Shown in pieces: positions 893 through 41,193 of a stretch of 41,193 nt of DNA. The notes beneath the pieces are model-generated. The model was not told the origin of the DNA. It worked only from the letters and a program-made list of their open reading frames with translations, and searched no databases. Numbering within the stretch: the stretch's first letter is position 1; every line of letters begins with the position of its first letter. A program made the position numbers and the translations under genes. Origin of the DNA: a virus; the IMG/VR virus record IMGVR_UViG_3300023179_000219, positions 1-41,193 of that record; one strand, written 5' to 3'.

Positions 893-2047
893 CTAGCCGA
901 TACTAGCAGTAATCTCCTCAATTGCCTTGGCAATGCGTGTCGCAGCCTGCACTCTGCTCTGACTGCTTAGCTTAGCGTAAATCTTCGTGGTCTGACTTGA
1001 GCTGTGGTTAAGAAGCTCTCCGATCTGCCCTACTGCCACACCACTTGAGAGGCCGACAGTGGCAAAAGTCCTTCTTAAGTCCCTCGCCCACAGATCAGGA
1101 GCACCGATCTCTTCTCTTATCTTGCGCCATAGCTTGTGTGGCATGTGAGTATTGAAAATAAGTCCCGTTGTCCTGCGAGGAAGACTCTCGATCATACAAA
1201 GCAGTCGATCAGGGAAAACAACCTCTTCAACTCGACCTGTTGTGGCTGTACTCTTGCCGTTAAACGAAAGCACTCCATATCGCTTACCATCTGCGGCATA
1301 ATGAATCGTTAAATCTTCCCACATCGCTCGCTCAAGTGCGCGAGGACGCGAACCAGTAAACAAAAGCGCCCACAAAAAAGCCACTCCGTTTGGATGGTGC
1401 GGCCATTCTCTTTCAAGAATCACTGCAATCGCACGCATCTCAGTCTCAGTTGCAAAACGCCTTCTAGATCTTTCAGGATAATGTCTCACCACACGACAAG
1501 GGTTTGAGCCAAGTGGCCGTAGCTGCTTTTCTTCTGCCATGTTCAAAAGCTTAGACAACACACTAAGCGATCTATTGGCTGTTGTTGGAGCAGATCGAAG
1601 TCTTGCGTGCCAACTGGTCACATCAGAAACCTGAAGCTGGTTTAACTTAAAGTGCGCAAACGTATCCTTAAGATGCTTCTCCCACAGAAGCTTCACATCA
1701 CGCGAGTAACCAGAGAGATGAAAGCGCTCAGTTGAGTAGTAGTTCTCATGCACCCAATAAAAAAAATCACCTAGCGTCATCTCTTGTCTGCCAAGCTGCC
1801 AATCACCTGAAGGATCTTGCCCGGCTGCTACCAAATCCAAGATGGCCTTAGCGCGTCTTCTCGCATCAGCAAGAGTGATATCACCAAAACGCCCAATCTT
1901 AGGCCGCCTCTGTATGCCAGTTCTGGTACGATAATAGAGCGCAAAAAACTTCTGCCCACTAGATCTCACGCGCAAATGAAGACCTTTAACCACGTTGTCC
2001 CACAAGACATTTCCAGGCATTGCTGCCTCAATTTGATCTAATTTCAT
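893..2047 (-). CDS. int: Tyrosine integrase, P4-like
   Basis: The start at ATG 2047 (MKLDQIEAAMPGN) is preferred to an upstream in-frame codon because the DUF4102-type N-terminal arm-binding domain begins there; this gives 384 residues. A SAM-like core-binding region follows, then the catalytic domain with TGSRPR (Arg), NGKS (Lys), ARDLRRTF (second Arg), LLNHS (His) and KIYAK (Tyr nucleophile). The usual His of the H-x-x-R motif is replaced by Arg, a substitution found in part of the P4-type family. The gene begins 114 bases from a tRNA-Arg 3' fragment, the expected arrangement for an integrase and its attP. It would catalyse integration into, and with a directionality factor excision from, a host tRNA-Arg(UCU) gene. 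Confidence 0.93.
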   Translation of the reverse strand: MKLDQIEAAMPGNVLWDNVVKGLHLRVRSSGQKFFALYYRTRTGIQRRPKIGRFGDITLADARRRAKAILDLVAAGQDPSGDWQLGRQEMTLGDFFYWVHENYYSTERFHLSGYSRDVKLLWEKHLKDTFAHFKLNQLQVSDVTSWHARLRSAPTTANRSLSVLSKLLNMAEEKQLRPLGSNPCRVVRHYPERSRRRFATETEMRAIAVILEREWPHHPNGVAFLWALLFTGSRPRALERAMWEDLTIHYAADGKRYGVLSFNGKSTATTGRVEEVVFPDRLLCMIESLPRRTTGLIFNTHMPHKLWRKIREEIGAPDLWARDLRRTFATVGLSSGVAVGQIGELLNHSSSQTTKIYAKLSSQSRVQAATRIAKAIEEITASIG

Positions 2048-2160
2048 TGAGCACAGGGGTAGCAAGACTACTAGAAACAATGCAATAGGACGGGTTGCTA
2101 TAGGTAAATAAAATAATAACTTAGCAAGTTGTGGTATGTAATAAATACCCCTTTTTTAGC

Positions 2161-2205
2161 TTTCTAATCAGGTGGTCGTAGGTTCGATTCCTGCCGGGCG
2201 CGCCA
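2161..2205 (+). other. attP core: 3' half of tRNA-Arg(UCU)
   Basis: These 45 bases match tRNA positions 32-76: anticodon loop TTTCTAA with anticodon TCT (2163-2165), 3' anticodon stem TCAGG, variable bases TGGTC, T stem GTAGG/CCTGC around TTCGATT, 3' acceptor strand CGGGCGC, discriminator G and encoded CCA. Nothing resembling the 5' half lies upstream, so this is not a working tRNA gene. It lies between the integrase and an HTH gene, and phage genes are present on both sides, so I read it as attP of the free or circularised phage, with the crossover in the anticodon-loop region. On integration it would restore the 3' half of the host tRNA-Arg(UCU) gene. Confidence 0.85.
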
Positions 2206-2211
2206 TTTAAA

Positions 2212-2472
2212 TCAAGTACTTAGAATCTTCCGAGAAAGTCCAGAGTATACGCTGGGTAGCACAGGGGTAGCACGGTGTTCTGACCCAGAGCGCACAAGTT
2301 GAGCAGCCTCCCACTTCTCCACTTCATGGACAGGATAGAGCACGGGGCGACCAGGGATATACCTAGGTCCACTGCCATCAAGCCTCATGGCCGCTAGTCT
2401 GCTTTCGGACTTGCGAAGTCTTTTTGCCAACTCTTTAGCTGTTAGATGGACGTTGAGATAATCGGGTTTCAT
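2212..2472 (-). CDS. Small HTH protein, excisionase candidate
   Basis: This 86-residue protein has an AlpA/MerR-type helix-turn-helix: HLTAKELAKRLRKSESRLAAMRLDGSGPRYI, followed by a beta wing (VLYPVHEVEKWEAAQ). The pattern L-T-x-x-E-L-A-x-x-L-x-x-S is typical of phage excisionases and AlpA-like regulators. The start overlaps the end of the GH114-like gene by four bases (ATGA), and the stop lies seven bases from the tRNA-derived att site. Its position opposite the integrase across attP makes a recombination directionality factor the best guess. It is the last gene of the leftward accessory operon. The C-terminal 25 residues look unstructured. Confidence 0.72.
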   Translation of the reverse strand: MKPDYLNVHLTAKELAKRLRKSESRLAAMRLDGSGPRYIPGRPVLYPVHEVEKWEAAQLVRSGSEHRATPVLPSVYSGLSRKILST

Positions 2473-3158
2473 CTACAAAACTCCTGCTTAGATAAATCCT
2501 TATTGCCGAACACTATGTTCGGATGTTTTTTACATAAAGCATCCGATTTTGCGGTGTACTCAATTGGGAATTGAATTTGAAAAGAAGAATACTTGCCGCA
2601 CTCTTTGTATTTCTCGCACTCTTCAATCACGACAAAATCAAAATAGGGTTTTAGTGATGAGGCTGTTTCGGCTGAGTTTTTAAGGCCGATTTTCATTCCT
2701 CTTGCATGAACTTTCTCGGAAAGAAACTTAACAAAATCGAGTTGGTCATCTTTGGTCAACTTAAAACCTGAATCATTTAAATGGCCATCTACGTTGTCAA
2801 AATCTACTGCATTAAAACCTTTTTCTTTTGCGAGCATAATTCTTTTTAGGATAATTTCACGGAGTTTTTTAGATCGGTAATCAGTCCAAAACTCTTTATC
2901 CCAGCCTTTAATAGGATTGCCGATAATATCAATTGGAAAATCTTTAGCGTCAGGCCGCCAGCGTTCATAAGTTGTTGCAATGTACGCCACGGCAAATTGA
3001 TTCTTGGGAAGCGTCTTCGTATCGAACAGATCCAAGAAAACAACTTCTTTGTTGTAGTTTTTGAAGTAGGAAAATGTCATGTTTGGTTTTAGCTCTGTGG
3101 CTTGGGTTACAGTTGGCACACAGGACGCCAAAGTGAGTGCCAAGTGTAAAGGGTTCAT
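2469..3158 (-). CDS. GH114-like glycoside hydrolase, putative lipoprotein
   Basis: The 229-residue product starts with a short hydrophobic stretch ending in LTLASC, a lipobox, although the usual N-terminal Lys or Arg is missing. The rest resembles the TM-barrel glycoside hydrolase family 114 (endo-alpha-1,4-polygalactosaminidase-like): an N-terminal AVAYIATTYERWR strand, KGFNAVDFDNVDGHL with acidic residues at a strand end, LTKDDQLDFVKFLSEKVHARGMKIGLKN, and YFDFVVIEECEKYKEC. These segments match the family's F-D-G-V-x-x-D-N-V-D and G-L-x-x-G-L-K-N signatures. It sits among small hypothetical genes rather than virion genes, so it may act on a host surface polysaccharide as a lysogenic or early trait. 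The substrate is unknown. Confidence 0.7.
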   Translation of the reverse strand: MNPLHLALTLASCVPTVTQATELKPNMTFSYFKNYNKEVVFLDLFDTKTLPKNQFAVAYIATTYERWRPDAKDFPIDIIGNPIKGWDKEFWTDYRSKKLREIILKRIMLAKEKGFNAVDFDNVDGHLNDSGFKLTKDDQLDFVKFLSEKVHARGMKIGLKNSAETASSLKPYFDFVVIEECEKYKECGKYSSFQIQFPIEYTAKSDALCKKHPNIVFGNKDLSKQEFCR

Positions 3159-3490
3159 TTAGATTCACTCTTTGCGAGAAGCAATTCTTTATGAAGTTTG
3201 TAGTAACTTTCATAGCGCCTGAGTTCTTCTATCGTTGCCTTGGCTTCTGCCATATATTCTCGAAATGCTCCTTTGACAGTCTCAATTTCAGTAAGGCGCT
3301 CGGCTAACATAGGACAACTTTCTAAGGCTTTAAGTATTGCCTCTGAAATTGTCTTTGGTCCCATCTCTCCTTTAATTAAAAATCTTGTGGAAAGTCTAAA
3401 GCTATATTCATCCATAACTGGCGTGGGAAACTCATCTAATTGCCAATTACTTCCTAAAAAATCTTGGACATTCTTAATAGATAGGTTCAT
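3155..3490 (-). CDS. Hypothetical protein, 111 residues
   Basis: I do not recognise this protein. It is 111 residues, starts MNLSIKNVQDFLGSNWQLDEFPTPV and ends in a long charged helix (ETVKGAFREYMAEAKATIEELRRYESYYKLHKELLLAKSESK) likely to form a coiled coil. There is no signal peptide or membrane segment. It overlaps the GH114-like gene and the upstream gene by four bases each (ATGA), so it is translated within the same operon. The ribosome binding site is GGTAGG just before the ATG. Confidence 0.75.
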   Translation of the reverse strand: MNLSIKNVQDFLGSNWQLDEFPTPVMDEYSFRLSTRFLIKGEMGPKTISEAILKALESCPMLAERLTEIETVKGAFREYMAEAKATIEELRRYESYYKLHKELLLAKSESK

Positions 3491-3939
3491 TTCCTACCCC
3501 AAGCCCATCGTGCCCCGCGTTTAAATGTTTCCATTGTTTCAGTGTTACATAGGTCGTCTGCTTGTGCCGCATCCTCCAATTCTTTCTCGTCGAGCTTGGG
3601 GGTATTGGACGTAATGGCTACCAATGGCTCATGCTTAGCCTTAAGCCTGTCGTAATCGGCTTGCCATTGTTCGGCGAGTTTTTTATATGAATCTCTCTCT
3701 TGCTCCAATAAAAATTCGTATGGTTCTTCTTCATAGTTTTGTAAGTTGCTGTATGGGTCTTCACTCGGCCCCGAAGAGAGGGCTTCTTCAAACTTCTCTG
3801 AATAACCGTAAACAAAACCTTCAACCCAAGATTCCTCAGAATTAGAAGGAATTGCATCGGGCATCTTGGCTTTGGCAAGTTTCTCTAAAGTTATTACTAG
3901 GGCTCTGCCAGCTTCGTCTGTAGATTTAGGTTCTTTCAT
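3487..3939 (-). CDS. Hypothetical acidic protein, 150 residues
   Basis: Unrecognised acidic protein. The second ATG, at 3939, is preferred over the one at 3945 because AAAGG touches the first ATG but lies six bases before the second. The protein starts MKEPKSTDEAGRALVITLEKLAKAK, has an aromatic stretch (WVEGFVYGYSEKFEEAL), a predicted coiled coil (EFLLEQERDSYKKLAEQWQADYDRLKAKHE) and ends FKRGARWAWGRK, a tail seen in several small phage proteins. No domain with a known activity is visible. It overlaps the next gene by four bases. Confidence 0.72.
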   Translation of the reverse strand: MKEPKSTDEAGRALVITLEKLAKAKMPDAIPSNSEESWVEGFVYGYSEKFEEALSSGPSEDPYSNLQNYEEEPYEFLLEQERDSYKKLAEQWQADYDRLKAKHEPLVAITSNTPKLDEKELEDAAQADDLCNTETMETFKRGARWAWGRK

Positions 3940-3941
3940 GC

Positions 3942-4199
3942 TCATCCTTTGCGCGTTGGGGGTTGTTTTTTAGTTTTTTGCAATACGATTATTTTTTTCA
4001 CCCATGCTTTAGGAATGGCTGTAATATTTAAAACTGAATCCGACGAAACTCCTTGTGCTAACACAATTTCGGTTTTGTTGTTTATTATTTCAAAGCCAAC
4101 AGTCGCTACAGAAACGGGTTTTTCTGTTTTAGCGTATTCGATTGTGCCCCAACCGCCGCGAGTACAAGCGTCTATCCAATCGACTTTAAGTATTCGCAT
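3942..4199 (-). CDS. Hypothetical protein, 85 residues
   Basis: Unrecognised. I choose ATG 4199 (MRILKVDWIDACTRGGWGTIEYAK) because it follows GGAAAAGG and because the longer reading would add 13 residues inside the upstream gene. The protein looks like a small beta-rich domain: a WIDA/T-xGGW motif, then strands VSVATVGFEIINNKTEIVLAQGV, ending in a basic tail (KTKKQPPTRKG). Small proteins of this pattern occur in early regions of many phages, with no known function. It overlaps the upstream gene by 14 bases. Confidence 0.7.
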   Translation of the reverse strand: MRILKVDWIDACTRGGWGTIEYAKTEKPVSVATVGFEIINNKTEIVLAQGVSSDSVLNITAIPKAWVKKIIVLQKTKKQPPTRKG

Positions 4200-4524
4200 T
4201 ACCTTTTCCAATCCGCTCGATTTGGGCGAGGGCTTCACGTGCTTTTGCGCCTGCTACTTTAAACCAATGACCCTCTCCACCCCTAAGACGAGATAGGTCT
4301 AGCATTGAAATCTTATTGGCAATATCCGGTTCCATTCCTTTAAAATGTTTTTCGTAGAGTGTTTTTCGATGCCAGTTTTCTTCATTTGCATAAAACTCAA
4401 GCGTCTTCCCTTGAATTTCGATAATAGAAAGGAGTTTTAGACAGAACTCAGGCGTGAAAGTATCTTGAAATTCAAATCCAAAATTAGCTTTCTCGCATAG
4501 GGCTTTGAGGTGTTGCAGATTCAC
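4186..4524 (-). CDS. Hypothetical protein, 112 residues
   Basis: Unrecognised, 112 residues. The start codon is GTG in the sequence GTGA, overlapping the stop of the upstream gene. It has a hydrophobic helical N-terminal half (FTPEFCLKLLSIIEIQGKTLEFYA) and a basic C-terminal half with RLRGGEGHWFKVAGAKAREALAQIERI. The FTPE-x5-L-L x-I pattern and following helices suggest a compact all-helical protein. No membrane segment. Part of the leftward accessory operon. Confidence 0.7.
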   Translation of the reverse strand: MNLQHLKALCEKANFGFEFQDTFTPEFCLKLLSIIEIQGKTLEFYANEENWHRKTLYEKHFKGMEPDIANKISMLDLSRLRGGEGHWFKVAGAKAREALAQIERIGKGNANT

Positions 4525-4988
4525 GGCTCACCAAATCTTTCTATGTATTCTTCCTGTAATTTTCGCCAAAGGGTGTTTTCAGGCGGTTCGCCAACAGTGC
4601 TAAAAATTTCGTCTGCCCAGTCGTCGGATCTTAAAGAAGATCCATCGTAATAGCAGGTTTTTCCATCTAAATGTTGGCATGGTCCCATAGGTTCATGTCC
4701 TTCAAATTGAGGTTCTAACGCATGATACCCAACATCCATGCCGTTCATTCTGCCAACTTCATGTCTAGACATCTTTGACCAACTAGAAAAATCTACGCTT
4801 GGTAAATAACAATTAAAGGTGCAGGCAAATTGAACTGCTCCCTTGTCGCCTTTTAATAAAAACCAAATATCTAAACCATGAACCCCATAGTTTTGCTTTG
4901 TATCTGCGTGTCTTCTGTCAAACGGAAGCCTTACGTCTACACTCTTTTTTAGTTTTGGACTTATTTCAAACATTTTTATTTTATTCAT
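4521..4988 (-). CDS. Hypothetical protein, 155 residues
   Basis: 155 residues, start ATG 4988 overlapping the upstream gene's end by eight bases. The body reads DVRLPFDRRHADTKQNYGVHGLDIWFLLKGDKGAVQFACTFNCYLP, then GMDVGYHALEPQFEGHEPMGPCQHLDGKTCYYDGSSLRSDDWADEIFSTVGEPPENTLWRKLQEEY. Cys and His residues (HxxxHxxx, GPCQHLDGKTCYYDGSSL) could bind a metal. I recall similar conserved proteins of unknown function in phages and plasmids with the YYDGSSL-type motif, but can give no activity. Confidence 0.72.
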   Translation of the reverse strand: MNKIKMFEISPKLKKSVDVRLPFDRRHADTKQNYGVHGLDIWFLLKGDKGAVQFACTFNCYLPSVDFSSWSKMSRHEVGRMNGMDVGYHALEPQFEGHEPMGPCQHLDGKTCYYDGSSLRSDDWADEIFSTVGEPPENTLWRKLQEEYIERFGEP

Positions 4989-5352
4989 CGTCGCCTTTCA
5001 GAAGGGCTCGAATCTCATCGGTGACGTCTTTCCATCCGTCACGGAAGTTCACGCACGGAACCTTGTAGCTATAGGCAAGGATTTGCGTGTTGGTGTCTAA
5101 CCAAATCCGCATCTTAGGCTTAGGCTTGGTCGGGTCTTCGCAGAAACTCCACACACACGTGTCAGCACCGTGGAGCAGCGTGAACCCGTTGTTGTTTACT
5201 CCAACAGCATACCCATTACACACCGGGTTCTTGCCCATACAGTAGAAGTATTGAGTCCCGTATCTAGAGTCTATGAAGGTAGCCCAAAACGGTTTCTCGC
5301 CGTTCTCTTGCCAGAGTTGCGCAAGCGTCTTCAGTCCACTAACCGAGCTCAC
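4981..5352 (-). CDS. Hypothetical protein, 123 residues
   Basis: Unrecognised, 123 residues, GTG start. Central part: WATFIDSRYGTQYFYCMGKNPVCNGYAVGVNNNGFTLLHGADTCVW, a probable beta-sheet domain with four Cys, then WLDTNTQILAYSYKVPCVNFRDGWKDVTDEIRALLKGDDE. No signal peptide. It overlaps its neighbours by a few bases on both sides, so it belongs to the operon. From here to 6278 the genes look more GC-rich than 2469-4988, which suggests a mosaic join near 5000. Confidence 0.7.
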   Translation of the reverse strand: MSSVSGLKTLAQLWQENGEKPFWATFIDSRYGTQYFYCMGKNPVCNGYAVGVNNNGFTLLHGADTCVWSFCEDPTKPKPKMRIWLDTNTQILAYSYKVPCVNFRDGWKDVTDEIRALLKGDDE

Positions 5353-5498
5353 TCAAACACCTCAACCTCTTCTGTCTCATCTGCTAGCTCTTGGAGTAGC
5401 TCGATCACAACATCACGCGTAGCCTCGGGTGGTAGGCGCGCCATGATCTCATCGATGAGTCCTTGTACTGTTGCCAAGTGTAGTTCTATGTCTGTCAT
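5349..5498 (-). CDS. Small acidic hypothetical protein, 49 residues
   Basis: Start taken as ATG 5498 (MTDIELHLATVQGLIDEIMARLPPEATRD), preceded by AAGGAT at normal distance; the in-frame codon 51 bases upstream would lie inside the preceding gene. The product is 49 residues, helical and very acidic at its end (ADETEEVEVFE). No family recognised. Small acidic early proteins of phages often act as inhibitors or DNA mimics, but nothing here proves that. Confidence 0.6.
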   Translation of the reverse strand: MTDIELHLATVQGLIDEIMARLPPEATRDVVIELLQELADETEEVEVFE

Positions 5499-5502
5499 AT
5501 CC

Positions 5503-5760
5503 TTATGATCTCCCCCTGAGCTCTGATAGCTCTTGTTCGTAGTCTTCAAGTAGCAGCAACAGCCTGAGTACCACAGAGGGACATGCCATGTGGTTGAAGG
5601 CTTGTAGCGCTAGGTACAATGCATGGCCTGTGCCATCTGTGGAACCCTTCTGCGCATCTGTGTAGTTGTTGATCAGCTCGTACAAGCTGTTGCGCGTATG
5701 AGCCATGGGCATGTTGATGTTCACCCGCTGGCAGGCTGGCTGCTCATCAGAGGTATACAT
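5503..5760 (-). CDS. Hypothetical protein, 85 residues
   Basis: Unrecognised, 85 residues from ATG 5760, overlapping the upstream gene by 14 bases. It contains RNSLYELINNYTDAQKGSTDGTGHALYLALQAFNHMACPSVVLRLLLLLEDYEQELSEL, which predicts two or three helices. The Leu-rich stretch is too amphipathic to be a clear membrane segment. Member of the leftward operon. Confidence 0.65.
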   Translation of the reverse strand: MYTSDEQPACQRVNINMPMAHTRNSLYELINNYTDAQKGSTDGTGHALYLALQAFNHMACPSVVLRLLLLLEDYEQELSELRGRS

Positions 5761-6097
5761 AGCCTAAGTCCCTTGCGTTACGACGTAGCCATAACACCCT
5801 GTCGTACTTATACGGTGGCCAGTTATCAGGCATCATCATCGCCTTGGCATCCTCTACAGTAGGCAGGATGCTGATGTTGGCTATGGGTAGCCCCTGTTCC
5901 ACTAGGTACAAGTTGAAGTCCCGCAGTAGATACGGGAACAGCGTCATAAAGCGTGAGGTGACAAAGATCATGTAACGAGGTGGCTCGATCTGTGTGCGCT
6001 TCATGATACACATCACACGCGCTAGCTCTGCGAATAAGGGTGTGTAGGGGCTATACGATGATATTGCTGGCTGGTTGATTTGCGTCTGCGGGAACAT
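5747..6097 (-). CDS. Hypothetical protein, 116 residues
   Basis: 116 residues. ATG 6097 is supported by GAGGAGG nine bases upstream. It overlaps the first operon gene by 47 bases. The core reads RYMIFVTSRFMTLFPYLLRDFNLYLVEQGLPIANISILPTVEDAKAMMMPDNWPPYKYDRVLWLRRNARDLGYVY, which looks like an alternating alpha/beta domain. No motif of known activity is seen. Confidence 0.65.
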   Translation of the reverse strand: MFPQTQINQPAISSYSPYTPLFAELARVMCIMKRTQIEPPRYMIFVTSRFMTLFPYLLRDFNLYLVEQGLPIANISILPTVEDAKAMMMPDNWPPYKYDRVLWLRRNARDLGYVYL

Positions 6098-6278
6098 CTT
6101 TTGCCGCCTCCTCTAGGTATTGGGGGAGTATCGCTTGCAGATTAAGCTCGGGATGCTTCTTATCAAGAAGCTCGAAGGCCCAAGCTGCGCCTGCTAAGAA
6201 GGCGCCTCGTTTTTCTACTTCTGCTTTTTGGAGTAGGCGCACTGTTGTTTGGGATTGAAATCTGTCTTTGTAATTCAT
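6051..6278 (-). CDS. Hypothetical protein, 75 residues; probable leaderless start
   Basis: First gene of the leftward accessory operon. I place the start at ATG 6278 (MNYKDRFQSQTTVRLLQKAEVEKRGAFLAGAAWAFELLDKK). A promoter (TTGACA, 17-base spacer, TACGAC) ends eight bases upstream, so transcription should start at or next to the A of the ATG. The absence of any Shine-Dalgarno sequence fits a leaderless mRNA. An in-frame ATG at 6350 lies upstream of that promoter. The protein is helical with an Ala-rich segment (FLAGAAWAFELL) and has no recognised family. Confidence 0.6.
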   Translation of the reverse strand: MNYKDRFQSQTTVRLLQKAEVEKRGAFLAGAAWAFELLDKKHPELNLQAILPQYLEEAAKDVPADANQPASNIIV

Positions 6279-6285
6279 TTTCAAG

Positions 6286-6314
6286 GTCGTAAGTTGTGCT
6301 AGCTTGAGTGTCAA
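6286..6314 (-). promoter_or_regulatory. Promoter of the leftward accessory operon
   Basis: Minus-strand -35 TTGACA (6309-6314, perfect consensus), 17-base spacer, -10 TACGAC (6286-6291, weak). The spacer contains the palindrome GCTAGC at 6298-6303, well placed for a repressor or activator. Transcription would start near 6279 and read all genes down to 2212. Confidence 0.5.
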
Positions 6315-6466
6315 TAGATTGCCAGGGTGTGTTATGGGATTTGCTAGCATGTGGATGGGGTGGACATACCAGTACTGGTAAAGCTAGACCCCCACCCCCC
6401 CATAGTCGAACTAACTGTGCTCGGCCTTAACTAAACCTTAACAATCAGCGCAAATAGTTGATATCA

Positions 6467-6496
6467 TTGATGAATGCGTTCGCTTGTGGCTATACT
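6467..6496 (+). promoter_or_regulatory. Possible rightward early promoter
   Basis: TTGATG at 6467-6472, an 18-base spacer and TATACT at 6491-6496 (five of six consensus bases). Transcription would start near 6503 and run towards the genes at 6947 onward, leaving a leader of about 440 bases. Alternative AT-rich -10 boxes (for example TATAAG at 6578-6583 with TTGAAT at 6557-6562) are also present, so the exact start is uncertain. Confidence 0.35.
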
Positions 6497-6508
6497 TGAA
6501 TCCGTTAA

Positions 6509-6563
6509 GTTTTGAATTTTAAATTGATTTTGGTTTTTGAATTTCGATTTTAGTTTTTGAATT
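6509..6563 (+). repeat. Three direct copies of GTTTTTGAATT
   Basis: GTTTTGAATT at 6509, then GTTTTTGAATT at 6533 and 6553, spaced about 20-25 bases apart (near two helical turns). They lie just upstream of a GCTAGC copy and an AT-rich possible -10 region, so they may be UP-element-like DNA or activator sites. Confidence 0.45.
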
Positions 6564-6729
6564 GAGCTAGCATTATATATAAGCGGCTTTTGCTAGCGGT
6601 GTTATATAGCAGCGCGTCGAAATGTTGAACTCATTCACACTGCTCACAAGTTATACGCAATGCTAGCTAGCTAAAACTGCTAGCTAAATCAAGCAATGTT
6701 TAATTGCTATAAAACTTTTGACTAACTAG

Positions 6730-6746
6730 TAAACAAATTCTGTTTA
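6730..6746. promoter_or_regulatory. Palindrome TAAACA-N5-TGTTTA, candidate operator
   Basis: Perfect 6+6 inverted repeat with a five-base centre. On the minus strand it directly follows a perfect TTGACA (6747-6752), so it would occupy the spacer of a leftward promoter, although the matching -10 is poor. A binding site for a dimeric regulator is likely; the protein is not identified. Confidence 0.4.
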
Positions 6747-6806
6747 TGTCAACTCAATAAATTCAACTGTTCACCTTTGGCACATTCACTGCAACTAACT
6801 TCTTAT

Positions 6807-6917
6807 ATGAGAACAAATAACAAACTAACAACACAATACATTATCGAACAGTTTACAGCGTGGACCATGTTAACGCTCTTCGTGAGTGTGACTGTATTCA
6901 CTTTGGTTAGTCTTTAA
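6807..6917 (+). CDS. Possible 36-residue membrane peptide
   Basis: An ATG-TAA frame encodes MRTNNKLTTQYIIEQFTAW followed by a hydrophobic segment (MLTLFVSVTVFTLVSL) that would span a membrane once. There is no good ribosome binding site, so translation is doubtful. It lies just upstream of the clear early gene at 6947. It could equally be chance reading within the leader. Confidence 0.3.
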   Translation: MRTNNKLTTQYIIEQFTAWTMLTLFVSVTVFTLVSL

Positions 6918-6946
6918 GAAATTAAATAAATAAAAAAGGAATATGT

Positions 6947-7114
6947 ATGAACAGAGATCAAATAGCGAACAAAGCTCACAAGCTTCTAAGTCAATACGGC
7001 ATTGGATCAAACGAGCCTGATTACTTGTTCTTAAGAGACAACATTATTGCCGCTAAAGAAATGGGGCGTACATGGAAACAAATCACTCAATGGCTTGAAG
7101 AAATATTGAACTAA
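6947..7114 (+). CDS. Small early protein, 55 residues
   Basis: ATG at 6947 follows AAAAAAGGA by six bases. The product begins MNRDQIANKAHKLLSQYGIG, continues SNEPDYLFLRDNIIAAKEMGRTWKQITQWLEEILN and predicts two or three helices; the part KEMGRTWKQITQWL resembles a small helix-turn-helix (T-W-x-x-I). It could be a small DNA-binding protein. It ends 13 bases before the next gene, whose ribosome binding site follows its stop, so the genes are co-transcribed. An overlapping ATG at 6943 gives only a 25-residue peptide. Confidence 0.68.
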   Translation: MNRDQIANKAHKLLSQYGIGSNEPDYLFLRDNIIAAKEMGRTWKQITQWLEEILN

Positions 7115-7127
7115 CAAAGGAGATTTT

Positions 7128-7823
7128 ATGCGAACAAATTTAAAAACAACATACTCACAATTTCTAGAAGAACAGCCCGAGCTTCAATCTATTATTAAAG
7201 AGATGCTAGAAGAAGCTAGCGAAAATATCAGCGACGATATGCATCCCAACCTAGAAGAAATTGAATGTCATTCAAGAGACGGTTTCATTCGAGACTCTGA
7301 AAATTTCGGCGGTTTTACAGCTACCACTTTTGATTTCCTTAGCTCTTATTGGGGTAGTGGCTTAAGGTACTCCTCAAAACTTGCCAATAAACATTTAGAT
7401 AAATCAGTTGAATACAGTCTTGAATCTGCCAAGGAAAATTTTATCGATCAATATGCCGCTGAATTAGGCGCTCTTGAAATCAATGAAGATCAAGTTAACT
7501 ACCATGATCTTTACGAATTAAAACAAAGTTATCTAGCAGAAAAACTTTCTGAATTTGAACTCGAGTCAATGAATGACGACACAATAATGCTTCAAATTCG
7601 AGTGATGTACAACGGCAGTGAAAATGGGAAACATTCAGCAGAAGTTTCAAGTGTTATCAATTGGGAATCACCATACCATCGATCTAGCGGCGCTGTTTAT
7701 AGGAATTGTGGCTTCAGGATGGAAACTGAAGATGTGAAAGTTGTGAATATCGAATGGAAAAACAATACCGAACTAAAAACCAAACTAGCTAAGGCTTTGA
7801 AAAAGGTTAAGGAGATTTTTTAA
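7128..7823 (+). CDS. Hypothetical acidic early protein, 231 residues
   Basis: Strong start: AAAGGAGATTTT-ATG. The protein is acidic in its first half (EEQPELQSIIKEMLEEASENISDDMHPNLEEIE) and has a later beta-rich part (DTIMLQIRVMYNGSENGKHSAEVSSVINWESPYHRSSGAVYRNCGFRMETEDVKVVNIEW) before a Lys-rich C-terminus. No known family or membrane segment recognised. It has low GC content like its two neighbours, unlike the recombination genes downstream. First large gene of the rightward early operon. Confidence 0.75.
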   Translation: MRTNLKTTYSQFLEEQPELQSIIKEMLEEASENISDDMHPNLEEIECHSRDGFIRDSENFGGFTATTFDFLSSYWGSGLRYSSKLANKHLDKSVEYSLESAKENFIDQYAAELGALEINEDQVNYHDLYELKQSYLAEKLSEFELESMNDDTIMLQIRVMYNGSENGKHSAEVSSVINWESPYHRSSGAVYRNCGFRMETEDVKVVNIEWKNNTELKTKLAKALKKVKEIF

Positions 7824-7824
7824 T

Positions 7825-8289
7825 ATGGGAAATAGAGTTTATGTAACATTAATAGACGAAAATAAATCAATTGTAATATATCAGCATTGGAATGGCGGCT
7901 TAGATTCTTACTTGCCCATCGTTAAGACAGCTTTCGAAATAAACCAAAAAAATTACAGGAAAATAGGTATAGAAGAATTTTTAGCATTCCTTAATAAAAT
8001 GGAATTTAGGCCTGAGATTCAAGAATCACCTGATGCATTTTCATGGATAGAAGAAAATGGGCATTACATCATTGATTTCAAAAATAGCACAATGCTTGTA
8101 AAAAATGAGCAGACCACTTTAGCTATTAACAATTTCAGAGACGAATTCAATAAATACAACACGAAGAAAATTAAAGAAGAGTACAGACAACAGAATTTAG
8201 AAAATTATTGGTTTGGTTTACAAAACGAAGCAACTATATTTTTCATGGATCTACCTAAAAACAAAAAATCAAAACGAAAGGCGTCTTAA
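7825..8289 (+). CDS. Hypothetical early protein, 154 residues
   Basis: Starts two bases after the stop of the preceding gene, with AAGGAG in that gene's last codons. The protein starts MGNRVYVTLIDENKSIVIYQHWNGGLDSYLPIVKTAFEI, a pattern (strand, then QHWNGGLDS) seen in small phage/plasmid proteins of unknown function, and ends with a Lys-rich tail (LPKNKKSKRKAS). No catalytic motif seen. Confidence 0.72.
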   Translation: MGNRVYVTLIDENKSIVIYQHWNGGLDSYLPIVKTAFEINQKNYRKIGIEEFLAFLNKMEFRPEIQESPDAFSWIEENGHYIIDFKNSTMLVKNEQTTLAINNFRDEFNKYNTKKIKEEYRQQNLENYWFGLQNEATIFFMDLPKNKKSKRKAS

Positions 8290-8290
8290 A

Positions 8291-8584
8291 ATGAAAAACA
8301 CAAAACACACGCCCGGACCTTGGAAACTAGACGACGTTTCAGACTTCATTCGTGGACCACGCGGAGTTTATATAGCCGAATTATGTGACGCGAATTCAGA
8401 CCGTGTTCAAGTTCATGGACCAAGATTTGAAGCAAACGCTCGCCTAATAGCCGCAGCGCCTGATCTTCTTGAGGCGCTTGAGCATATATCTAGAGAGCTG
8501 CCCGAAAACGAATTTATTAAACATTCAAAGGATGCAATTCGTAAAGTTAAAGACGCTATTCGAAAAGCCAAAGGTGAGTTATGA
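8291..8584 (+). CDS. Ead/Ea22-type early protein, 97 residues
   Basis: Start ATG 8291 (MKNTKHTPGPWKLDD). It has the common phage signature HTPGPW near the N-terminus and NARLIAAAPDLLEALE in the middle. These two elements occur together in many small proteins of early phage regions (Ead/Ea22-like); their function is unknown. The C-terminus is a repeated basic helix (KDAIRKVKDAIRKAKGEL). It overlaps the recombinase gene by four bases. Confidence 0.75.
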   Translation: MKNTKHTPGPWKLDDVSDFIRGPRGVYIAELCDANSDRVQVHGPRFEANARLIAAAPDLLEALEHISRELPENEFIKHSKDAIRKVKDAIRKAKGEL

Positions 8585-9153
8585 TGCCACGTCACCTAAC
8601 ACACGAGCAACTAACAATGGCGCTAGCAGCGTTAAGCCTTGAGCGAGACAACGAGTGGGCCTTATGTTGCGAGCTGCTTATCAGATCCGGCATGAGAGGT
8701 CACGAGTTAACTCATGTAACGCTAGCAGATGTAGACGTGACAAGAGCGATGCTAGCTATACACGCTGCTAAGGGATCTAAGGATCGAGTTGTGCCAGTTG
8801 ACAAGGGTTGCCTGTTCGCTCTTGAGAGAGGGCTTAGGTTAGGTATTATGCCATGGCAGATATATCAGGCAGACTCCTTTAAGGCGTTATTAAGGCGCCA
8901 TTGGGCGAAGATCCGAATCAAGGTCTTAGGTCTAGGCCTTAGCCACTGTTCGCTACACGGCCTTAGGGCGTCTTTTGCTGTTCGTCTGTACCAAGACGTA
9001 GGTCGAGACGTTGTGCTTGTCCAAGAGCTGCTAGGGCATAAGAAGATTGAGAACACAATGCGATACGTTAGGCTAGTTCAAGCTGACGAGAAAAAGGCCG
9101 ATATATTAAAAGCTTTTCGCGCGCGATCCTTACCGCGTAAGAAAACGGCTTAA
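8581..9153 (+). CDS. Short tyrosine recombinase, catalytic domain only
   Basis: 190 residues, with all catalytic residues of the tyrosine recombinase family: Arg39 (SGMRGHEL), Lys67 (KGSKDR), His126/Arg129 (LHGLRASF), His153 (LLGHKK) and Tyr162 (TMRY). The N-terminal core-binding domain of normal integrases is missing; family members of similar size include the FimB/FimE inversion recombinases. It starts at ATGATG overlapping the upstream stop, with AAAGGTGAG as ribosome binding site. It is unlikely to be the main integrase, which is at 893-2047. It may invert or resolve DNA, or act on the phage's own sites. I saw no obvious inverted repeats flanking it. Confidence 0.85.
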   Translation: MMPRHLTHEQLTMALAALSLERDNEWALCCELLIRSGMRGHELTHVTLADVDVTRAMLAIHAAKGSKDRVVPVDKGCLFALERGLRLGIMPWQIYQADSFKALLRRHWAKIRIKVLGLGLSHCSLHGLRASFAVRLYQDVGRDVVLVQELLGHKKIENTMRYVRLVQADEKKADILKAFRARSLPRKKTA

Positions 9154-9167
9154 AGGAGATTGTGACT

Positions 9168-9530
9168 ATGAAAACATATTTAACTGCAACCCTTACCGCT
9201 CTTTTAATCACCAGTTGCCAAAGTCCTGCTAACGTCATAGCCGTCAGACAACTAGCTACAGAACCAAGTGAAGAAGAACAGGCAGCTGAGCAAGAACAGA
9301 TAGAGAAAACAGACGCCGAACTAAAGGCACACCCAACACCATGTTGGCACAATCTACAGTCATATCAAGCCATTACCAGTGCATTCACACTCATCATGCA
9401 AAACGAGACAACACACGGTGACTATGGACAAGCTCTGAGCTTCAGACGCGCACTCCAAGCTAGCAACCCCAAGTGTTACCGCTATCTACAAGACTCAGGA
9501 TTAGGTCGATCACCACTCACAGGAGAATGA
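9168..9530 (+). CDS. Putative lipoprotein, 120 residues
   Basis: AAAGGAG lies nine bases from ATG 9168, which is preferred to GTG 9162. The N-terminus MKTYLTATLTALLITSCQS is a lipoprotein signal with lipobox ITSC. The mature part has an acidic, Glu-rich linker (EPSEEEQAAEQEQIEKTDAELK) and a Cys-containing globular end (PCWHNLQSYQ...NPKCYRYLQDSG). Function unknown; an early-expressed surface lipoprotein could block superinfection, but this is conjecture. Last gene before the operator/promoter at 9560. Confidence 0.72.
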   Translation: MKTYLTATLTALLITSCQSPANVIAVRQLATEPSEEEQAAEQEQIEKTDAELKAHPTPCWHNLQSYQAITSAFTLIMQNETTHGDYGQALSFRRALQASNPKCYRYLQDSGLGRSPLTGE

Positions 9531-9559
9531 TTACGCGCGCCATCCTTACAGGCTAGACA

Positions 9560-9601
9560 AGGTGTCTTTAAATTGACACCTACAGGTTGCTACTGTAAGA
9601 T
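9560..9601 (+). promoter_or_regulatory. Promoter overlapped by AGGTGTC inverted repeat
   Basis: A perfect inverted repeat AGGTGTC / GACACCT (9560-9566 and 9575-9581) overlaps a consensus -35, TTGACA at 9573-9578. A 17-base spacer leads to TAAGAT at 9596-9601. Transcription would start close to 9608, four bases before the ATG at 9612. The layout is that of an autoregulated promoter with the operator on the -35 box, and the downstream genes encode DNA-binding-type proteins. Confidence 0.5.
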
Positions 9602-9611
9602 GCAGGTAATA

Positions 9612-9902
9612 ATGGCAAACCCTAAAAGCGGGCTAACTCAAAAGCTAGCCAATCTTTCTAGAGAGCGAAAACTTGATTCGCAAGGTCCATTTTTAAACAA
9701 AGACGTGTCATTTAAGGATCGCCTTATGCAGCTTAAGAATACCAAAAAGCAAAAGAAGGCCGCTGTGATCTATATCCGAGTAGACAAGGACATCAAAGAC
9801 CTACTCACAGCACGTCTTGTAACCGATAACCTGAAATACAAGGACATCTTCCTTGCTGCCATCAGCGAGTACCTTAACATCAACATAGATGACAGATCAT
9901 GA
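9612..9902 (+). CDS. Ribbon-helix-helix-like protein A
   Basis: I choose ATG 9612 (MANPKSGLTQKLANLSRERK) because the promoter's start point lies just before it; the mRNA would be almost leaderless. 96 residues. The last half, KKAAVIYIRVDKDIKDLLTARLVTDNLKYKDIFLAAISEYLNI, reads as one strand and two helices, the ribbon-helix-helix pattern of small DNA-binding proteins such as Arc or ParG. The N-terminal half is basic and probably disordered. The next gene is a clear paralogue. It may bind the upstream inverted repeat, the GTCGCA repeats downstream, or both. Confidence 0.7.
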   Translation: MANPKSGLTQKLANLSRERKLDSQGPFLNKDVSFKDRLMQLKNTKKQKKAAVIYIRVDKDIKDLLTARLVTDNLKYKDIFLAAISEYLNINIDDRS

Positions 9903-10117
9903 CTCCCACGCGTAAACCAAACACTCTTGCCGCTCGTCTTGAAACTGTGAAAGCCAAGAAAAAGCCAAAGCAGTCTTCCATAGTCTACATCCGAATGAAC
10001 AACGATCTTCGCAAGCCCCTGATGGCCAAACTCGCAGCCGATAACCTTACCCTCAAAGATTTAGTCTACGCAGCCGCTGCCGAGTACCTTGGAATAGACA
10101 TTTCCGACCTCATTTAA
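9899..10117 (+). CDS. Ribbon-helix-helix-like protein B, paralogue of A
   Basis: 72 residues; start overlaps the preceding stop (ATGA). KQSSIVYIRMNNDLRKPLMAKLAADNLTLKDLVYAAAAEYLGIDISD aligns without gaps with the end of protein A (YIRVDKDIKDLLTARLVTDNLKYKDIFLAAISEYLNINIDD), so the pair arose by tandem duplication. Same predicted strand-helix-helix fold with a short basic N-terminal arm (TRKPNTLAARLETVKAKKKPK). The two could form hetero-dimers. Last rightward gene before the repeat-rich non-coding region. Confidence 0.7.
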   Translation: MTPTRKPNTLAARLETVKAKKKPKQSSIVYIRMNNDLRKPLMAKLAADNLTLKDLVYAAAAEYLGIDISDLI

Positions 10118-10141
10118 TTGCAACAACCGTGCCAAACCAGT

Positions 10142-10445
10142 GTCGCACCCTAAAAATGCCATTTGCGACATTTTCCAAACTGTTTGTACCAGCAATCATT
10201 AGCTTTTTTTAATCGGTCGCATTGAGTCGCATACCGATTTTCGACATGTAAGTTATTGGAATTATTGTTATTAGTATTAGAATATATATATATATATATA
10301 TTTAGCTGTATACGTGTAAAAACATCTTCTAATTTCCTCACTTTTACACATATATAGCGGCACCCTTGCGACTTCGCGACTTTGGGACATTTCCTTAGCA
10401 AATACAAACACATACACTGTCGCACGAAAAATCAAGAAATGCGAC
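10142..10445. other. Non-coding repeat cluster with (AT)n tract, candidate origin
   Basis: This gap between converging genes carries the hexamer GTCGCA or its complement at 10142, 10164, 10216, 10226, 10367, 10419 and 10440, plus a one-mismatch copy at 10375, in both orientations. Chance predicts about 0.15 copies. In the centre is a pure alternating AT tract (about 10282-10301) in a strongly AT-rich stretch, and an 8+8 inverted repeat GTGTAAAA/TTTTACAC (10314-10321, 10342-10349). Iterons beside an AT-rich unwinding element, next to a primase-helicase gene and two ribbon-helix-helix-type genes, suggest a replication origin. A partition-type site or a complex operator is the alternative. No gene is seen here. 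Confidence 0.6.
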
Positions 10446-10446
10446 C

Positions 10447-12756: not shown

Positions 12757-13467
12757 ATGAAGCTGCACTCGACATTAAATTTGCCGAGAGAGCCCAAGTA
12801 CATGTTGTTTTATGGGGTCTCTGGGATTGGAAAAACTTCTCTTATCAAGACTTTACCTGAGCCATCGAAGGTTCTTGTACTGGACACTGAGAGCGGTCTT
12901 GCATCGCTCCAAAAAGATGGAGTGGAGGTAGCTTACAAGCCTCTTGCTTATAATGATGCGGGCGCGTTGTTATCTGAAGCTGAGAGATTTGAAGAGTTTA
13001 AAAAGTTCACGCAGTACATTCAAACTCCTGAGTGTACCTCTCGCTTTAACGTGCTCTTTGTTGATTCACTCACTGAAATTGCTCAGAACATTCATCGTCA
13101 CATGAAGGAAAAACATGGTGATGGATTTAAGCTCTGGGGCGAGTACACAGCAGCTATGCAAGATCTTATTAAGTTCTTCAGAGATCTTAAGCACTACACC
13201 GTGATCTTCACAGCTCTAGAGGAGTATGTGGAAGATAAGGAGACTGGACTAGCAAGCTATTTTCCTAGTGTGGGTGGTCGCAAGGTGAAGGATGCTATCT
13301 TGCCTGCCTTTGATCTAGTTGCTCGTATGGTGGTGGCAGAAGATGACAAGCGCATTCTTGTCACTAAGACCACTAAGAAGACTCAAGCCAAGGATCGTCT
13401 CGGGGTTTTGGCTAACCCTGAGGAGCCTAATTTAACAATCATTATGAAGAAGATGGAGAATAGATAA
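12757..13467 (+). CDS. Sak4-like RecA-fold ATPase (AAA_24)
   Basis: 236 residues. Walker A YGVSGIGKTS at residues 19-28 and Walker B VLFVDS near 99-104, then LKHYTVIFTALEEYVEDKETGLASYFPSVGGRKVKDAILPAFDLVARM, matching the AAA_24/Sak4 family of phage single-strand annealing ATPases. Gene order supports this: an SSB-like gene follows directly, with a helicase and a YqaJ exonuclease downstream. It probably promotes annealing or strand exchange during replication and recombination. First gene of the rightward recombination operon, starting after AAAGGAATAGGAT. Confidence 0.85.
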   Translation: MKLHSTLNLPREPKYMLFYGVSGIGKTSLIKTLPEPSKVLVLDTESGLASLQKDGVEVAYKPLAYNDAGALLSEAERFEEFKKFTQYIQTPECTSRFNVLFVDSLTEIAQNIHRHMKEKHGDGFKLWGEYTAAMQDLIKFFRDLKHYTVIFTALEEYVEDKETGLASYFPSVGGRKVKDAILPAFDLVARMVVAEDDKRILVTKTTKKTQAKDRLGVLANPEEPNLTIIMKKMENR

Positions 13468-35030: not shown

Positions 35031-35065
35031 AAAAAAGCTAGCAGACACCAACGTGCCTGCTAGCT
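35031..35065 (-). terminator. Rho-independent terminator below the decoration gene
   Basis: On the minus strand: AGCTAGCAG, a 12-base loop, CTGCTAGCT, then TTTTTT (A-run at 35031-35036 on the plus strand). Stem of nine pairs. It would end a share of the transcripts carrying capsid and decoration genes before the fibre genes, giving high capsid yield; some read-through must occur for the downstream late genes. Confidence 0.8.
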
Positions 35066-39917: not shown

Positions 39918-40180
39918 TATTCAGTCTTGGCTCTCACAAGGGCGTCTTCGTAAGCAGCAGGGTCTTCCATGAGCAGCTCATCGAGCTTATCATTGGTCAC
40001 ACCGCTAGCATCTTGTGATAGCCCATCTCCCTCAATGCTAGATTGTACTTTATTTTTGCTAGCACTTACAGGCCACCGATTAAAATGGATCACAAGCTCA
40101 CCTGACTTGAAAAACGATACTCCATTCTCACAGCAAGATTCGAGTATCTCCTTGAGACTTAGTCCATATAACTCTGCCAA
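39917..40180 (-). CDS. Small protein between terminase and portal, 87 residues
   Basis: TTG start at 40180 with AGGAG eight bases upstream; the start lies inside the terminase gene (22-base overlap). MAELYGLSLKEILESCCENGVSFFKSGELVIHFNRWPVSASKNKVQSSIEGDGLSQDASGVTNDKLDELLMEDPAAYEDALVRAKTE: a small folded front part and an acidic helical tail. Small genes of unknown function are usual in this place; it may assist packaging. Confidence 0.62.
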   Translation of the reverse strand: MAELYGLSLKEILESCCENGVSFFKSGELVIHFNRWPVSASKNKVQSSIEGDGLSQDASGVTNDKLDELLMEDPAAYEDALVRAKTE

Positions 40181-41193
40181 AAGTGAATCTCCTCTTGAAC
40201 TGAAGAGTCCATCGCTTCTGCTAGCAGTCTATCTGCTTGAGAGCGCAACTCATCTATTGTCAAAAACTTATCAACCTTGGGACTTAAAAGTCCCTCCCCA
40301 CTTAGGTTGCTACCATGCGTGTTGATCACATTCCAATCAAAGCCTGCTGCATTTATCGCGTAGCGCAAGGCATCGAACAAATCATCTCGCACATAACGCT
40401 TGTTATAGTTGACCTCTAAGCTTGATAGCTCGTCTGCTAGCTTAAACCCAGCCAAGAACTCATCAGGAATGTTGTCCCGAAACTGATCATCTGAGCCTGT
40501 GTGCATAATCAAAAGTCTGTTGGTCTTAAACAGTGTGGAGATAAGCTCAATCCCTGACTTGCGATCCTTGTCCGCCTTGTTAAACGGAAAGCCTGCTTGT
40601 GATGCGAATGTAGACAAGTCGCGAGCAGCCCAATCGTAGAACACAAAATCAACCCTGTGTGTACCTTCAGCCATCTGCTTGTACTTATCGATGACATCCT
40701 TGCACGTTGTAACAACACCATCACCTCGCCAAGCACGAATAACTCTTCCCTCTGTCTTGGTAGGGTTAATAGCCACAAACACAATCGACGAAGGGTGTCC
40801 CGTGTTACCACCCGATCCATAATCAAGGCCTACATACACCATCCAATCATCAGGAACGCGGTAGTATGGTACAAGATGCTGCTCTCTTGAAAAAGTAGGG
40901 ATTAAAAGCCCTTCATCCTTAACAAAGCGACCTAGTACACGTCGCTGCACTTCAATATCACTGGTACAGCGCTGAATAGTTTCTTGAATGCGATCATTAG
41001 TCCACTTAGAAGCAGTGCCATCTGCATAGGTCTGACAGTCGTAAAGAGAAACCTGCCATACACGCGCCTCTTTTTGCCACTTCTTCTTATCTTCAACCAC
41101 TTCTTTCCAGAAGGTCTGTCCAAGCGTTGCGGTGAAAACAAACCACATGTAACCACGCGTTCCATTCACTCGCATTTGAAGCTCTGGCAACAA
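40159..41193 (-). CDS. Terminase large subunit, C-terminal part
   Basis: The reading frame enters from beyond the right edge, so the ATPase Walker motifs are not visible; 344 residues remain. FTATLGQTFW is the coupling motif, and the RNase H-like nuclease has its acidic residues at VGLDYGSGG, FVFYDWAARD and RDDLFDALRYA. The enzyme cuts phage concatemers and pumps DNA through the portal. It is followed by a small gene and the portal, the usual order. The window edge is the only truncation seen. Confidence 0.92.
   Translation of the reverse strand: MLPELQMRVNGTRGYMWFVFTATLGQTFWKEVVEDKKKWQKEARVWQVSLYDCQTYADGTASKWTNDRIQETIQRCTSDIEVQRRVLGRFVKDEGLLIPTFSREQHLVPYYRVPDDWMVYVGLDYGSGGNTGHPSSIVFVAINPTKTEGRVIRAWRGDGVVTTCKDVIDKYKQMAEGTHRVDFVFYDWAARDLSTFASQAGFPFNKADKDRKSGIELISTLFKTNRLLIMHTGSDDQFRDNIPDEFLAGFKLADELSSLEVNYNKRYVRDDLFDALRYAINAAGFDWNVINTHGSNLSGEGLLSPKVDKFLTIDELRSQADRLLAEAMDSSVQEEIHFWQSYMD

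Follow-up and report, generated by a model that had tools for sequence, protein, structure and literature searches.

A 329-bp intergenic gap at positions 10118-10446 of the window (the whole 41,193-nucleotide stretch of viral DNA that was analysed) is probably the replication origin of this phage, and of the iteron type. The gap lies between the second of two small ribbon-helix-helix (RHH)-like ORFs, which ends at 10117, and a PrimPol-helicase gene on the minus strand that ends at 10447, and it holds seven of the 15 exact copies of the hexamer GTCGCA in the whole 41-kb window, split four to three between the strands. The origin reading draws its main support from comparative sequence data, because comparable arrays recur directly 3′ of both related and unrelated phage primase-helicase genes. 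The features of the region are as follows.

9573-9902, plus strand: RHH-like small protein 1, outside the conserved unit
9899-10117, plus strand: RHH-like small protein 2, with weak matches to RHH_10 and 2kel, by fold Arc/CopG only; outside the conserved unit
10118-10446, no strand: intergenic gap between convergent genes and candidate replication origin of iteron type; 36% GC (window, 45%)
10142-10147, plus strand: GTCGCA site 1, exact, facing site 2 at 22 bp
10164-10169, minus strand: GTCGCA site 2, exact
10211-10239, no strand: inverted repeat AATCGGT (10211-10217) / ACCGATT (10233-10239), which encloses the direct pair of sites 3 and 4 and appears as a stem
10216-10221, plus strand: GTCGCA site 3, exact
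10226-10231, plus strand: GTCGCA site 4, exact, 10 bp after site 3
10240-10245, minus strand: one-mismatch site GTCGAA
10249-10261, minus strand: putative weak IHF-like element TTCCAATAACTTA, two mismatches, between the AT tract and a site block
10281-10302, no strand: alternating AT tract (AATATATATAT/ATATATATATT), candidate DNA-unwinding element
10305-10358, no strand: stem-loop with arms at 10305-10321 and 10342-10358 and a 20-nt loop; DNA folding z = -3.25 (single-stranded DNA)
10367-10372, minus strand: GTCGCA site 5, exact
10375-10380, minus strand: one-mismatch site GTCGCG, 8 bp from site 5
10383-10388, minus strand: one-mismatch site GTCCCA, next in the 8-bp phase
10419-10424, plus strand: GTCGCA site 6, exact, facing site 7 at 21 bp
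10440-10445, minus strand: GTCGCA site 7, exact, adjoining the primase stop codon
10447-12687, minus strand: PrimPol and AAA+ helicase of 746 aa, putative initiator (Pfam Prim-Pol, 2e-14; PHROG 3022, primases, 9e-39)
12757-13467, plus strand: Sak4-like recombinase, divergent from the primase, an arrangement shared with relatives

The array is the densest non-microsatellite hexamer cluster of the whole window, with sites in a left block (sites 1 to 4 and the mismatched 10240 site) and a right block (sites 5 to 7 and the mismatched 10375 and 10383 sites); the spacing is 21-22 bp in facing pairs and 8 or 10 bp in direct pairs. A preliminary description of this DNA had reported seven exact hexamers and one near-exact hexamer in both orientations, with spacings of 10 bp (10216/10226) and 8 bp (10367/10375); the exact count, the orientations and both spacings hold, while the near-exact sites number three rather than one. 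The array thereby shows the repetition of a short sequence beyond chance that is expected of an iteron origin. Chance clustering in AT-rich non-coding DNA would gain from the fact that a single hexamer was picked after the fact among many, but seven copies of any hexamer were reached in 0 of 3,000 local shuffles and in 0 of 100 dinucleotide shuffles of the whole window (maximum 6), and arrays recur independently in other phages, leaving this explanation with a probability close to negligible. Minus-strand ORFs of 91 and 62 aa, both candidates only, overlap the gap region. Elsewhere in the window the palindrome GCTAGC, possibly an operator repeat, occurs 32 times, or 4.1 times the base-composition expectation, often as TGCTAGC and in clusters (positions 135-148, 865-903, 6297-6680, 8622-8751, 35037-35060 and 40004-40437), notably around the gap at 6351-7127.

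Iteron origins are also expected to carry an AT-rich region within or between the iteron blocks, and here both the alternating AT tract and the stem-loop, whose 17-nt arms are 88% complementary, sit between the left and right blocks. The alternating stretch proposed for the middle of the array is present at 10281-10302, and an 8+8 inverted repeat, which we take to be GTGTAAAA/TTTTACAC, is real and belongs to the larger stem-loop. No match to the IHF consensus within one mismatch occurs in the gap at 10118-10446. Hairpins and convergent 3′ ends could also mark a regulatory or termination region in which repressor operators and terminators separate the two genes. Against this, the array is not promoter-proximal for either flanking gene, and 7 to 13 copies in both orientations around AT tracts, recurring across phages, exceed what termination needs, so that we consider a regulatory role highly improbable.

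The gene at the right edge of the gap had been named PrimPol-DUF3987; the minus-strand PrimPol assignment stands, whereas the DUF3987 match falls below the Pfam cut-off. A predicted model of the protein, of moderate overall confidence, matches the PrimPol domain of pRN1 ORF904 and MCM-type AAA+ chains, with a C-terminal domain too uncertain to use for fold (pLDDT below 50). The initiator of an iteron origin would be expected to end in a domain that binds double-stranded DNA; judged by eye, the primase C-termini of relatives look winged-helix-like. The family profile also matches the solved chain 6a9w, presumably the PrimPol domain of the NrS-1 phage polymerase. Divergent from the primase, across a 70-bp gap without an HTH gene, runs a recombination operon encoding Sak4, a DUF669 SSB, a DEAD helicase, an HNH protein and a YqaJ exonuclease. 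The window is that of a portal/terminase phage with an integrase (893-2080), and its terminase ORF runs off the right end; it also carries a glycoside hydrolase family 114 gene at 2469-3158 (E 2e-50). Cumulative GC skew, suggested earlier as a check on the origin, proved uninformative, following gene direction with a local minimum near 12.5-13 kb.

Matches to Sak4 led to phages that share the divergent primase/Sak4 layout. In Idiomarinaceae phage 1N2-2, GGTACA occurs 11 times in the gap on the 3′ side of the primase, and arrays lie directly 3′ of the primase gene in the Alteromonas phages XX1924 (GGTTCA, 12 copies) and PB15 (GGTTCA, 13 copies), in Salicola phage CGphi29 (GGGACA, 6 copies) and in ct3Oc712 (GGGACA, 8 copies). 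In 1N2-2 and XX1924 the primase is a Toprim protein with a RepA-like AAA_25 domain, and the 1N2-2 protein has no meaningful BLASTP match to the window primase; the primases of PB15, CGphi29 and, in part, ct3Oc712 are homologous to these two proteins. A Comamonas genome contig has 9 GCTAC/GTAGC sites within 250 bp after a relative of the primase. Several relatives have small HTH genes ahead of the primase. In Kimi, a relative by its primase, CCGGG words surround an AT tract on the 3′ side of that gene; they were not counted, the word being common throughout the locus; MW202475 has no array beside repA. Single-protein scans of viral contigs with the primase, RHH-like protein 1, Sak4, portal and DEAD helicase returned no close relatives of the window. 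A recombinase search gave two distant loci only (L003 and L004) and was unhelpful, the convergent 822-aa ORF of L004 being no primase.

For a test without selection for repeats, 80 loci were fetched by helicase sequence alone, through an alignment of three phage relatives with the window primase. Of 32 non-redundant loci, 9 had their strongest mixed-orientation hexamer cluster in the 400 bp that follow the primase stop on the 3′ side, against 1.04 expected if position were uniform (P = 5e-7). Because non-coding DNA differs from coding DNA, a second comparison took non-coding gaps only and was restricted to the 12 non-redundant loci in which the primase is followed on its 3′ side by at least 120 bp of non-coding DNA; there this 3′ gap ranked first in hexamer clustering in 10 of 12 (1.55 expected; P ~6e-8), gaps being unweighted by length and some 3′ gaps being long, which favors them somewhat. 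Each of these ten loci has its own hexamer word. Most loci whose regions were compared have two iteron blocks around an AT tract, and 16 such regions contain 7 exact IHF consensus matches against 0.73 in block shuffles, a 16-fold excess over the rest of the loci; better IHF matches in relatives occupy the place corresponding to the weak element at 10249-10261, between the AT tract and a site block. A position directly downstream of a helicase initiator gene that recurs in relatives, a further expectation for an iteron origin, is therefore found here.

The 3′ position is one of perhaps two layouts. Of 29 tested loci, 17 lack a 120-bp gap on the 3′ side of the primase gene; some of the 17 carry an array on its 5′ side, at a distance of 0.65-1.25 kb. 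The strongest cluster fell in that range, which was picked after looking, in 5 of 32 loci (1.56 expected; P = 0.018), and these clusters may represent a second layout. Hexamer arrays lie ~0.9-1.1 kb 5′ of the primase in L048, L058, L059, L073 and L095, with a gene of ~180-200 aa and a small gene in between, and GCACGC repeats occupy a similar place 5′ of the primase in L096/L097. The archaeal virus vir555 (L008, 8664-9082) has an array of 12 GTTGAA copies inside its PrimPol gene, a possible intragenic origin of a different layout.

The preliminary description had left open whether this DNA is a phage origin or a centromere-like site, and the two halves of that proposal fared differently: the recurrence of arrays 3′ of primase-helicase genes favors the origin. 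As had been noted, two RHH-like genes end at the left edge (9902 and 10117), the second 25 bp from site 1. RHH proteins are known to bind short repeats 8-10 bp apart, and a partition site at which they bind the array and segregate an episomal prophage would fit this proximity; such an episome could be served by a second, small tyrosine recombinase at 8581-9153 (190 aa, catalytic-domain match only), additional to the integrase. Yet the RHH nature of both small proteins is suggested by weak matches only, and relatives of the RHH genes are absent from roughly 90 other loci, many of which do carry such arrays beside the primase; an alignment search of viral contigs with the RHH pair likewise found none. 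No partner NTPase of the ParA/ParM type appears among the window proteins scanned against Pfam, which cover part of the ORFs of a record that may be incomplete. Exact GTCGCA is absent from 945-10141, a stretch that includes the upstream region of the RHH operon, and an ordinary integrase is present. An association of arrays with RHH genes across relatives, as a centromere would lead one to expect, is not seen, and we regard the centromere reading as improbable.

If the gap is an origin, the primase-helicase is the best but unproven candidate for direct binder of the sites. It is favored because the arrays follow its gene, because iteron words differ between near-identical helicase cores with diverged C-termini, and because in related systems (SaPI Rep and P4 alpha) binding is through a dedicated DNA-binding domain. 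Between L019/L023 and L052/L055 the helicase core is 83% identical, the C-terminus 51%, and the iterons differ (TACACA in L023, AATAGT in L052), while L077 and L078 have near-identical helicase cores, diverged C-termini and different iteron words; in both cases the co-variation test is weak and the pairs are not independent. Alternatively, another factor (an HTH, RHH or Sak4-operon protein) would bind the origin and then bring in the primase-helicase, on the pattern of RepC and RepA in RSF1010. A third binder would fit the persistence of the layout beside a non-homologous helicase, the array keeping its place next to both PrimPol-AAA+ and Toprim-RepA proteins, and the small HTH genes before the primase in several relatives would supply candidates. 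This alternative seems unlikely, in that no HTH gene separates primase and Sak4 in the window, iterons and primase C-terminus change together in some pairs, and the SaPI and P4 initiators bind directly.

With the primase-helicase as initiator, the protein would bind the GTCGCA sites of both blocks, probably by its C-terminal domain, and two facing helicase rings could then form, one on each block, to open the AT tract or the stem-loop between them, perhaps aided in some relatives by a bending protein such as IHF. The PrimPol domain would prime the exposed strands and bidirectional synthesis would start, with the operon of Sak4, SSB, helicase and exonuclease potentially supplying recombination functions. 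We tentatively suggest, as a possibility rather than an expectation, that a large set of phages shares a general origin layout, namely a private hexamer array directly 3′ of the primase-helicase gene. The word of this array would change rapidly along with the initiator C-terminus, and the position of the array would be kept when PrimPol-AAA+ is swapped for a non-homologous Toprim-RepA, so that each lineage would have its own origin code. We found no prior report of a family-wide array pattern of this kind in phages in the open-licence literature. Most phages known from sequence alone have no mapped replication origin, and the simple rule of a mixed-orientation hexamer array directly 3′ of the primase-helicase gene would yield a predicted origin and recognition word for many such phages; helicase cores of ~83% identity that carry different words also offer a natural series for the co-change of initiator and origin.

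Judged from sequence and layout, the window array has the positional and sequence features of a known kind of iteron origin. Several characterized systems join priming and helicase functions in one protein. The NrS-1 phage polymerase, like the window protein, is a PrimPol with a C-terminal ring helicase; it recognizes a template motif of 8 nt, two copies of which lie mid-genome (PMC7102993), in contrast to the array found here. The P4 alpha protein combines priming, helicase and origin-repeat binding by a winged-helix domain, with a Toprim-type primase in place of the PrimPol of the window initiator (PMC4234260). In pRN1 the origin lies directly 3′ of orf904 (PMC4234260), where there is also a stem-loop, and the window resembles it in a PrimPol-helicase whose PrimPol fold matches ORF904 and in a probable origin directly 3′ of the gene; the pRN1 operon also includes a small repressor-type protein, ORF56. 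The pRN1 origin differs in being a single 100-nt stem-loop reported without iterons, whereas the window stem-loop sits inside an iteron array. In pRN1, ORF56 and the replicase are cotranscribed; the window has no cotranscribed upstream small repressor gene, and its RHH genes are convergent to the primase. A comparable layout is that of the SaPI Rep-ori, where iterons lie directly downstream of the helicase gene and the SaPI5 Rep is a primase-helicase fusion (PMC7581432). Like the window, SaPI Rep-ori and the putative ori of SCCmec Cch2 place short iterons directly downstream of the gene for a self-loading initiator helicase; the window differs from SaPI in being a tailed-phage genome with hexamers in both orientations, and the likeness is one of layout, with putative binding in the window.
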